Below are positions 13,477 through 54,330 of a stretch of DNA of 64,000 bases, piece after piece. Position 1 is the first letter of the stretch; each line of letters begins with the position of its first letter. Made by a program: the position numbers and the translations under genes. The stretch lies in the NCBI RefSeq assembly GCF_963665355.1, contig NZ_OY762229.1:2790001-2854000 (forward strand), in the 5' to 3' direction. The DNA comes from an uncultured Desulfobacter sp. Its GTDB lineage: Bacteria > Desulfobacterota > Desulfobacteria > Desulfobacterales > Desulfobacteraceae. The notes below the pieces were generated by a model. The model saw nothing but the letters and a program-made list of their open reading frames with translations, was not told the origin of the DNA and searched no databases.

Positions 13477-13643
13477 ACCGATCATCTCGAAATCGAAATC
13501 GTTATCGAAATCGAACTCGAACTCGGACATATAAAATGCAAACCATGATATATTCATGCTCATTACGTTGGGCGGCTGTTCATTCAATGTGCGAGACGTA
13601 ACTCGCAGAAGTCGATTTCGATTTCGATCGCGATTTCGACTGT
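13477..13643 (-). repeat. TCGAAA-hexamer palindromic element, copy 1
   Basis: The left arm (13487-13514) is a run of TCGAAA hexamers with one variant hexamer (TCGTTA). The right arm (13612-13639) is its inverted counterpart, made of TCGATTTCGATTTCG-like units with variant TCGCGA. Between them lies a core of about 97 bp. On the minus strand it aligns along its whole length with the plus strand of copy 2: the same ACAGTCGAAATCG edge, shared TTGCATTTTA in the core, and the same far edge with CGATTTCGATTTCGAG followed by RTGAT. This is a decayed repeat family, non-coding, of unknown mobility. Confidence 0.75.
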
Positions 13644-14289: not shown

Positions 14290-14536
14290 ATATGCACCAG
14301 CCCGAACAAAAGAAGCGGATAAAATCCTATCTCTCAGCGCCCCGCTCAAAGCAGATGCGGATAAGGTTCTGGGCTATAAAAAGGATGCCCTGCAGACCTT
14401 TCCTCACTTTTCCATTGATACGGCTGTCCTCTATGTGGCCGGCAACAGGGGATATAAATTTTTTAAAATTTAAGATAAACTAAGGAGTTGCGTGGTAACA
14501 CTTATTCCGTTCATAACTGATTTGGAAAGAGAGGCT

Positions 14537-14661
14537 GTGTTTGAGCAAAAAGTTGCCCAGATGCAAGGCCCAGAAAAATTTAAAACCGGAGCATACTTAA
14601 GTATGTGAGGATTTTGAATTTTTCTGCAACGCCGCAGATGGGTGACTTTTTGCCCAAACAC
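14537..14661 (-). repeat. 125-bp hairpin element, copy A
   Basis: Terminal inverted repeats GTGTTTGAGCAAAAAG and CTTTTTGCCCAAACAC frame a sequence that folds back almost end to end. The apical stem is CATAC-TTAA-GTATG (14592-14605) and an inner AT-rich stem pairs AGAAAAATTTAAAA with TTTTGAATTTTTCT. Copy B has the same length and fold with compensatory changes. The right end lies 3 bases from the stop codon of the leftward gene ending at 14665, so it would be transcribed as that gene's 3' hairpin, probably acting as a terminator. Confidence 0.85.
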
Positions 14662-14664
14662 TGG

Positions 14665-15069
14665 TTATTCGGGGGCGCTGGCGTGTGCTTCTGACAGCCG
14701 TTCCTTCAGATACGCCACTTCCTGCTCATCATATTCATACATGTCAAAGCAGTAACCGTCTTCCCCCAGAAGTCCTTCGGGCACAAGGTCGCCGGCCTCC
14801 TGGGGATCGGTAACCAGTTCCCCGTAAAAACAGACGGAGAGCCAGCGTTCATCCGGGTCATCGTCAATGACATCCACCATGGCAAACAGCGGGCGCTGGG
14901 CCTGGGCCGCATGCCGGGGACGAAGGGAGTAGCTCACCCCGGGCCGGCTGACAAATTCAAGGGATGTGTCGGCAAGGGTTTTCAAGTGGTCCACTAACTC
15001 GGAAAATGCCCTGCGGGTCTGGCTGTCATTATCTTTCCAGTCGGCTAATAATGCGTTGAGTTCTTCCAT
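14665..15069 (-). CDS. Conserved-looking hypothetical acidic protein
   Basis: 134 residues, not recognised. It is soluble, acidic and without signal peptide or membrane segment. It has a helical N-terminus (ELNALLADWKD ... LVDHLKTLA), a central part with SRPGVSYSLRPR and FAMVDVIDDDPDERWLSVCFYGELV, and an acidic tail (DMYEYDEQEVAYLKERL). The start at 15069 is 3 bases after the moaB stop, so it belongs to the pyrR-moaB transcript. The RPGVSYSLR and WLSVCFY segments vaguely recall proteins that check small substrates, but I assign no function. The 125-bp hairpin element follows its stop directly. Confidence 0.75.
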   Translation of the reverse strand: MEELNALLADWKDNDSQTRRAFSELVDHLKTLADTSLEFVSRPGVSYSLRPRHAAQAQRPLFAMVDVIDDDPDERWLSVCFYGELVTDPQEAGDLVPEGLLGEDGYCFDMYEYDEQEVAYLKERLSEAHASAPE

Positions 15070-18857: not shown

Positions 18858-19010
18858 ACAGTCGAAATCGAAATCGTGATCGAAATCGATTTCTGACGCT
18901 GATATTTCGCAAATTCAATGAATATGAACCCAATCTACCGAAAATAAATATAAATGCGTTGCATTTTAAATTCCGATTTCGATAGCGATTTCGATTTCGA
19001 GGTGATGGGT
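18858..19010 (+). repeat. TCGAAA-hexamer palindromic element, copy 2
   Basis: The left arm (18862-18889) is TCGAAATCGAAATCG, TGA, TCGAAATCGA, differing by one base from the 13487-13514 arm of copy 1. The right arm (18973-19000) is its inverted complement with 3 mismatches in 28. The core is about 83 bp. The element lies 88 bases after the mltA stop and is inverted relative to copy 1. The plus-strand frame reads NSDFDSDFDFEVMGYE, which mirrors the peptide read from copy 1, but I do not regard either as coding. Confidence 0.75.
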
Positions 19011-19065
19011 TATGAGACGTTCAATTGGAGATTCACCATTTTAATTTTCCGGGATGGTCCGGCCA

Positions 19066-53446: not shown

Positions 53447-53484
53447 GTTCAATCAGGCCATGATGAGTACCTGAACGGAAAGCC

Positions 53485-53609
53485 GTGTTTGGACGAAAAG
53501 TTGCCCAGATGCAAGGCGCGGAAAAATTTGAAACCGGAGCAACCTCTTGGTTGTGAGGATTTTAAATTTTTCCGCAACGCCGCAGATGGGTGGCTTTTCG
53601 TCCAAACAC
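53485..53609 (-). repeat. 125-bp hairpin element, copy B
   Basis: The terminal inverted repeats GTGTTTGGACGAAAAG (53485-53500) and CTTTTCGTCCAAACAC (53594-53609) are perfect over 16 bp. The apical stem is CAACC-TCTT-GGTTG (53540-53553). The right end is 7 bases from the stop codon of thiQ (53617). Located between the convergent 3' ends of the REC-GGDEF gene and thiQ, so it may act as a bidirectional terminator. Confidence 0.88.
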
Positions 53610-53616
53610 TAATAAA

Positions 53617-54330
53617 TCAGGCCATGAATGATTTGACCCAGTCATTAACCGGATGATGAATAAGATTGTCCGGGCTGCCCTGCTGAACAATGCTGCCCTG
53701 GTTCATCAGGATAATCTGGGTGCCTGCGGCAAATGCTTCCTCGTGATCATGGGTGACAAAGATGGTGGTGATGTGCAGCCGGGATAGAATCTGGGTGAGC
53801 TGATTCAGCAGTCTTTTTCTTAAAACCCGGTCCAGTGCGCTTAAGGGTTCGTCCAGCATGAGCAGTCTTGGCCCGGGGGCAAGGGTTCTTGCCAGGGCCA
53901 CCCTTTGGCGTTCGCCTCCGGACAGTTCATCCACTTTTCGATTTTCAAATCCTTCAAGATCGGTCAGTGTCAGCATCTTGGCCACAATCGGTGCCTGTTT
54001 CTGCCTGGGCATACCTTTCATTTTCAGACCAAATGCAATGTTGTGAAACACATCAAGATGGGGAAACAGGGCATAGTCCTGGAACATCATGCCAAAGTTG
54101 CGTTTGTGCGGGGGCAGATCCAGGATGGAGGTGCCGTTGAACCTGATATCGCCGGAGTCCGGCATATCAAGCCCGGCTATCATGCGTAACAGCGTTGTTT
54201 TTCCGCTGCCCGAAGGACCGAGCACAGACAGGCGGCTGCCCCGGGGCAGGGCAAGGCTGACGTTGTCCAGAAAACAGACGCCGGTTGCGCCGGTTTTGCT
54301 TAAGTTTTGTATGATAAGTTCATTTTCCAT
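53617..54330 (-). CDS. thiQ: ThiQ-like ABC transporter ATPase
   Basis: 237 residues. Walker A GPSGSGKTT, signature LSGGERQRVALARTLA, Walker B LLMLDEPLSALD, and H-loop VTHDHEEA are all intact. It powers the permease encoded directly upstream. The spacing and order ThiB-ThiP-ThiQ (minus strand) match the thiamine transporter of enterobacteria, and the start at 54330 is shared with the permease stop. An iron or polyamine role cannot be fully excluded from the ATPase alone. Confidence 0.85.
   Translation of the reverse strand: MENELIIQNLSKTGATGVCFLDNVSLALPRGSRLSVLGPSGSGKTTLLRMIAGLDMPDSGDIRFNGTSILDLPPHKRNFGMMFQDYALFPHLDVFHNIAFGLKMKGMPRQKQAPIVAKMLTLTDLEGFENRKVDELSGGERQRVALARTLAPGPRLLMLDEPLSALDRVLRKRLLNQLTQILSRLHITTIFVTHDHEEAFAAGTQIILMNQGSIVQQGSPDNLIHHPVNDWVKSFMA

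Follow-up and report, generated by a model that had tools for sequence, protein, structure and literature searches.

A MITE-like hairpin repeat of Desulfobacter whose right end often lies at stop codons

Copies A and B and their repeat family

The window analysed here, a 64,000 nt stretch of DNA from an uncultured Desulfobacter sp., contains two copies of a hairpin element, designated A and B. The features at the two loci are as follows.

14519..14536, + strand: outer left arm of copy A, degenerate (consensus GTGCCTGAACGGAAACCC)
14537..14661, + strand: hairpin of copy A, 125 nt, read so that the G.U pairs are on the + strand
14584..14613, + strand: apical module of copy A, AACCGGAG..TGAGGATT
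14662..14667, no strand: right flank of copy A, TGGTTA, the target position, holding the stop codon of the leftward gene
14665..15069, - strand: gene of 134 aa without a Pfam match, its 3' end toward the right end of copy A
53467..53484, + strand: outer left arm of copy B, GTACCTGAACGGAAAGCC
53485..53609, + strand: hairpin of copy B, 125 nt
53532..53561, + strand: apical module of copy B
53610..53615, no strand: right flank of copy B, TAATAA, the target position; its left counterpart is TGATGA
53617..54330, - strand: ABC-transporter ATPase gene, its 3' end toward the right end of copy B

The initial annotation had described A and B as 125 bp copies alike over their full length, and had placed the right end of A 3 nt, and that of B 7 nt, from a leftward gene's stop codon. 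Coordinates and distances were confirmed, and the copies share 86% identity. Two points were absent from that annotation: both copies lie in convergent gene gaps, and the repeated unit reaches 18 nt beyond the left hairpin end. An 18 nt core, with up to three mismatches allowed, occurs in the window only at A and B (0.08 expected). To the left of copy A is a YchF-type GTPase gene, which ends 1.2 kb away, with an uncertain 125 aa ORF between; copy B is situated between a GGDEF response regulator gene on the left and the ABC ATPase gene on the right. Rfam yielded no matches at gathering threshold in the window, and none at E<=1 in seven loci. Degenerate TCGAAATCGAAATCG-type repeats, both direct and inverted, were observed at window positions 13487-13530, 18862-18905 and 18974-19014.

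Both copies fold end to end, with free energies of -63.4 kcal/mol for copy A (z -10.8) and -77.9 kcal/mol for copy B (z -12.9), and none of 200 shuffles was as stable in either case. The proposal that at least five base pairs differ in a compensatory manner was borne out, as five pairs are changed on both sides and still paired. Two are in the base of the hairpin (9/117, G-C in one copy and A-T in the other; 11/115, A-T and G-C), and higher up are an inner pair (A-T and G-C) and two apical pairs (CATAC/GTATG and CAACC/GGTTG). Uncompensated differences in copy A are an A.C at 8/118 and an unpaired C at hairpin position 34.

Searches of the genome and its relatives, as the initial annotation had recommended, identified A and B as members of a large repeat family. 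In the genome of origin, BLAST with copy B gave 73 matches at E<=10 and covariance model R1, built on 18 copies, gave 87 at E<=1, with both strands counted in each case. Merging of overlaps in the fetched loci (E<=0.01) left 56 places, 21 of them long (>107 bits) and the remainder short, truncated or weak; the weak places may include some hairpins of other kinds. Matches (E<=0.01) were present in every one of the 18 same-genus genomes searched, ranging from at least 4 to at least 78 per genome. An 18 nt core occurred in 117 stretches from named genomes, and most of the 80 listed belong to Desulfobacter or Desulfobacterales; some others of the 80 are unrelated and presumably chance matches. Equal coordinates link G003 to D. 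vibrioformis (L053) and G007 to D. postgatei SZUA-453 (L033), which points to Desulfobacter as the genus. The copies in the genome of origin are old, with a nearest-neighbour identity of 0.66-0.94.

The full element is about 143 bp, consisting of the 125 nt hairpin and the 18 nt outer left arm. Three 15 nt end boxes can be distinguished: an outer left box (GTGCCTGAACGGAAA), an inner left box (GTGTTTGGACGAAAA) and the inverted form of the latter at the right end, which pairs with the inner left box to make the hairpin base. In the + orientation the outer left box GTGCCTGAACGGAAACCC is followed by the hairpin GTGTTTGGACGAAAAGTTGCCC...GGGTGACTTTTCGTTCAAACAC. Short forms have lost the middle and kept both ends, and one subfamily (L217, L218, L220 and relatives) has an additional small hairpin inside the left arm. 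Elements of 36-37 nt, scarcely more than both ends, were seen in relatives within the genus (L414, L419, L423, L427), and one long copy of the genome of origin (L222, near C2:891128) has its left arm split by an insertion of ~85 nt.

Insertion sites and the search for a mover

Target site duplication was assessed in a sample of the best long matches (21 of 84 rows of A3, 72 of 150 of A4 and 31 of 83 of A5), comprising 120 copies after removal of 4 duplicates, of which 82 had clear ends. Copies from relatives were mostly found via the exact left-arm core, so the sample is non-random. Flanks on either side read TANNTA, and the duplication motif is TAWWTA. The flanking 6-mers were equal in 12 of 82 copies (1.5 expected; maximum 6), the 4-mers at offsets 2/0 in 23 (4.4; maximum 12) and the central NN in 38 (9.4; maximum 19), where each comparison is with 300 shuffles and uses the most favourable among many offsets. 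For most copies the duplication is imperfect, the 6-mers being unequal in 70 of 82, and at A and B it is partial or absent. Lengths of 4 and 6 bp cannot be surely separated because the outer TA is so common; however, 6 bp is favoured by a 37 nt end-only form with TAAATA on both sides (L423) and by a related element from another family of the same order with TAATTA on both sides (L386).

The copy A site differs between related genomes. In 17 loci compared at the copy A gene (G008, G009 and G013 lay outside the comparison, and the alignment of L339 stopped short of the gene end), the element is present at the same stop codon in G003, G015 and G016, and as a short form in G006; full and short forms thus occur at one same site. 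Eleven loci lack it. Six of these carry, by eye, a terminator-like hairpin instead (G005, G017, G018, G002, G004, G010), and the other five are G001, G007 (L346), G012, G011 and G014. G015 and G016 carry both the element and a terminator-like hairpin, and G003 and G006 the element only, again by eye. In the genome of origin the right end lies 3 nt farther out than in the relatives, so its copy A may represent a separate insertion. The copy B gene was matched in 13 relatives, each only from query position 708-779 onward. The element occupies 568-710, and copy B therefore looks specific to this genome when compared with the 13.

Taken together, the multiple copies, the TAWWTA duplications, the filled and unfilled sites, the short forms and the covarying arms (see below) argue for a MITE-like element. 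It has terminal inverted repeats (GTGTTTGGACGAAAA inverted, plus the outer left GTGCCTGAACGGAAA), a target site duplication that is statistical and imperfect in most copies, a small size with many copies (about 143 bp at 56 places in the genome of origin) and presence or absence between relatives at the copy A site. We consider it probable that A and B belong to a non-autonomous repeat of the MITE type in this genus, moved in trans by a putative DDE-type transposase. Counting against this reading are the imperfect duplications, the age of the copies in the genome of origin and the failure of the search described below to find an autonomous element. Such a transposase would cut at the end boxes and insert the element at a palindromic, AT-rich site; the hairpin would be kept because movement needs the folded strand, because it serves as the 3'-end structure of the neighbouring gene, or both.

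Known bacterial MITEs such as ERIC/IRU, NEMIS/Correia, RUP and YPAL are about 100-200 bp long (ERIC, 127 bp), with paired terminal repeats, target duplication, stable transcripts and intergenic location (PMC2229807). Compared by description with that source, the Desulfobacter element resembles them in size, terminal repeats, duplication and intergenic position, but differs in sequence and hosts, in its 6 bp TAWWTA target, in the extra unpaired outer left box, and in the link, with one orientation, between its right end and stop codons. Within the literature searched, no paper combined Desulfobacter with miniature inverted-repeat transposable elements, and the excerpts of one paper on Desulfobacter and palindromic sequences describe no such repeat.

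No autonomous element with these ends was found among the IS1634, multicopy PF01609 and IS200 elements or in 1.6 Mb of loci; families such as IS3, IS21, IS30, IS66, IS110, IS256 and IS630 fell outside this search. The IS1634-type loci and the multicopy PF01609 elements (30 matches; borders compared where a second copy existed) were rejected as partners, as their ends differ. An end pair 2,423 bp apart in L214, with TAAGTA on both sides, spans glnS-like and other housekeeping genes and was attributed to chance. Two further loci, L411 and L428, are alike over 1.3 kb and encode a ferredoxin-type protein; no transposase was seen in them. Close to a GTGCCTGACCGGAAA site on C3 there is also a 457 aa transposase gene (L296), for which no clear ends were recognised. 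Separately, we observed six near-identical insertion sequence copies in the genome of origin (L310-L315; 99.8-100%), with a 534 aa transposase frame and unrelated ends.

The right end, stop codons and conservation of the fold

Genes next to the element were called by a simple codon-usage script trained on the window, and neighbours on both sides were obtained for 112 of the 120 copies. In 81 of these 112, the right end has a gene oriented toward it. In 36 copies the stop codon at the right end is in register -1 (31 TAG, 4 TAA, 1 TGA), that is, made of two flank bases and the first base of the element; 13 stops are at +3 and 6 at -8, inside the end. At the left end, into which 56 genes point, the corresponding numbers are 6, 4 and 2. 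Of the 30 convergent gaps, 24 have the right end in register and 4 the left. Five of the 112 copies lie between divergent genes, and 26 are in tandem arrangements with the right end toward a gene start. Copies A and B are near the stop (+3 and +7 by the count of the initial annotation) and not in register -1.

In total, the right end is in stop register in 49 of 112 copies and the left end in 10, compared with a background of 19 of 346 harmless TANNTA sites overlapping a stop in either register or orientation, about 3% per end; this control is rough and is inflated by missed genes. Of 24 flanks, 16 suggest a TAA before insertion. At the 21 copies away from stops the palindromic target is the same but lacks polarity, and the orientation is therefore not accounted for by target sequence alone. 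The preference for gene ends that had been suggested for a mobile element was thus substantiated, and lies with the right end, often at the stop codon to the base. Replication strand was rejected as a cause of orientation, with no bias among 41 own copies (minus/plus 21/10 where GC skew is positive and 7/3 where it is negative, the skew being taken from the sampled loci only). Beside a short copy behind a cysS-like gene (L214:2986-3013) we observed a short tandem duplication, TCGAATAAGTAGTGA, of the stop codon and element border.

Stop codons provided by repeats have been described before. The termini of REPs (20-40 bp, with a GTAG or CGTC tag) often give TAG stops (PMC3733652), and in pneumococci 36 of 58 CDSs that overlap a BOX take their stop codon from it, while SPRITE is terminator-like and over-represented at the 3' ends of genes (PMC3049150). 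The structures of BOX, RUP and SPRITE as described there are unrelated to the present element, which differs in the fixed register of one of its ends. That feature, the one-sided orientation and an apex shared by different arms were not met in the portions of the REP and BOX papers compared. The family provides a clear case of a mobile repeat that abuts stop codons in a single register and, for the most part, a single orientation, with related species differing at a site. It makes testable whether targeting by transposition machinery or later selection is responsible, and whether domesticated hairpin repeats replace ordinary terminators.

For covariation, the 67 of 120 copies that are exactly 125 nt were aligned without gaps. 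Standard pairs make up 95.2% of 3,551 cells, against 89.8% in shuffles (maximum 90.5%). Double-changed cells number 163 (shuffle mean 52, maximum 67), and 23 of 53 pairs have double changes (mean 9.8, maximum 15), with shuffles that ignore the relatedness of copies. At four pairs, a G.U wobble on the + strand is the commonest type (41, 61, 61 and 62 of 67); elsewhere in the hairpin there are 89 G.U and 36 A.C. Divergence from the consensus is 33% in the unpaired outer left box, 7% in the outer arms, 9-11% in the inner stem, 22% in the apical stem and loop, and 4% at the listed loop positions (asymmetric internal loops), which vary least among the parts listed. That the hairpin diverges less supports constraint after insertion without proving it, and is partly a selection artefact because copies were found by hairpin sequence. 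Same-site copies across genomes gave at least 17 pairs among 196 places; both flanks match in 5, and one pair repeats another. In 10 aligned same-site groups most arms are still complementary, although the apex of L139 is damaged and L089 has one uncompensated pair.

The claim that the fold has been under selection is consistent with covariation well above shuffles, but meets a rival in gene conversion between copies or template switching between arms, by which complementarity would arise without selection on the fold. This explanation, which we consider unlikely, is favoured by apical types that switch as a block at one site, AACC/GGTT against ATAC/GTAT (L186/L130, L091/L090, L067/L188). The double changes in 23 of 53 pairs count against it, as do the conserved asymmetric loops (4%) and four G.U wobble pairs, both of which template switching would erase, and which argue against this rival as a full account. 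Movement of a REP/REPIN by a RAYT (REP-associated tyrosine transposase) is highly improbable. The element is palindromic, intergenic and multicopy, chiefly in tandem or convergent gaps close to gene 3' ends, like REPs, and GTAG REPs likewise supply TAG stops (PMC3733652), but in contrast to the REPs described there it has a 125 nt hairpin, a target duplication and ends reading GTG...CAC without a GTAG or CGTC tag. RAYT matches exceed the cut-off in 8 of 19 genus genomes, with others just below it (79.0 against 80 bits in G018), so the rejection does not rest on absence of RAYTs from the genus. The best match in the genome of origin is 31.6 bits, below the cut-off, and its two intact Y1 transposases are IS200-type; no element copy was found at any of its 5 Y1 loci, or within 1.5 kb of 4 strong RAYT loci of relatives, one of which adjoins a different short inverted repeat. 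Target duplication is not a known product of single-strand HUH transposition.

To the stop and orientation preference being survivorship alone, with random insertion over TAWWTA and loss of other copies, we assign a little less than an even chance. Stops are TA-rich, a change from TAA to TAG by insertion would be harmless (hence the relevance of the 16 of 24 flanks), and the 21 copies away from stops lack polarity on the same target. One possible reason is that the preferred orientation places the - strand, which has two adjacent A.C mismatches ~18 bp up the stem, in the upstream transcript, where RNase III may cut it less well. Against survivorship stands the excess over the rough background (49 right and 10 left ends of 112, versus 19 of 346); moreover, the preferred orientation starts the hairpin at the stop and might be expected to be the worse one, because ribosome stalling has been reported for REP hairpins near stops (PMC12306157, citing an earlier study). 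We are more doubtful that the element is chiefly a host-used 3'-end element, a bidirectional terminator or mRNA 3' hairpin selected at gene ends, with mobility as its history, but this is a possibility to be taken seriously. It accords with the 81 of 112 copies with gene 3' ends toward the right end, with the arms diverging by 7% and the unpaired outer left arm by 33%, and with the terminator-like hairpin, element or both at the copy A site depending on the relative, a swap that fits a terminator role without proving it. However, low hairpin divergence results in part from how the copies were found, and the copies include 5 flanked by divergent genes and 26 in tandem whose right end is toward a gene start. 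The terminator scan, for a G+C-rich hairpin followed by a T run, was negative on copy A and gave one weak match of 5 pairs within copy B, so that neither was recognised as an intrinsic terminator. Of the two possibilities first raised, a transferable terminator or a mobile element, the latter was upheld, and the former was not shown, there being no consistent U-tract.

The apical module outside the genus

The apical pattern AACCGGAG N8-18 TGAGGATT was present in 22 of 395 genomes of the phylum and in 17 of 246 genera, including the genus of origin, with 1 match to the reversed control. Thirty phylum loci were folded, of which 7 look like chance (L376-L378, L382-L384, L388) and 2 are own copies. 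In the majority of the 21 that remain, the motif caps a long hairpin whose arms differ. A crude ORF search of 21 loci outside the genus placed several hairpins near gene ends, the hairpin limits being uncertain. An apical module on unrelated arms suggests a protein partner. We speculate, at low confidence, that there is a phylum-wide superfamily of mobile long hairpins with varying arms and one apical module, AACCGGAG..TGAGGATT, whose folded strand would be read by an as yet unfound protein, which would attach right ends to stop codons with a fixed orientation. If true, this would be a stop-codon-homing element, which leaves the protein intact and places a hairpin exactly where translation terminates.

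A second hairpin family with the same apical motif was observed in the genome of origin at L271, L276 and L283 (near C2:2723570, 424902 and 3658233). Its ends, GTGTCTGACCGAAAACC / GTGCCCGAC.., are related to those of the copy A/B family, and L276 has TATTTA on both sides. At L379, L380, L397 and other phylum loci, the same apex is carried by very long hairpins, to about -120 kcal/mol. A published multicopy intergenic repeat has a central palindrome, GRCGTAGCGCTGCTACGCC, and similar sequences were reported in Desulfotalea psychrophila; compared by description with the part of that source available, the palindrome resembles the GGCGTAG..CTACGG apex of L379, L380 and L397, and provides a lead. 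The internal loops of hairpins of the L379, L380 and L397 type are regularly spaced.
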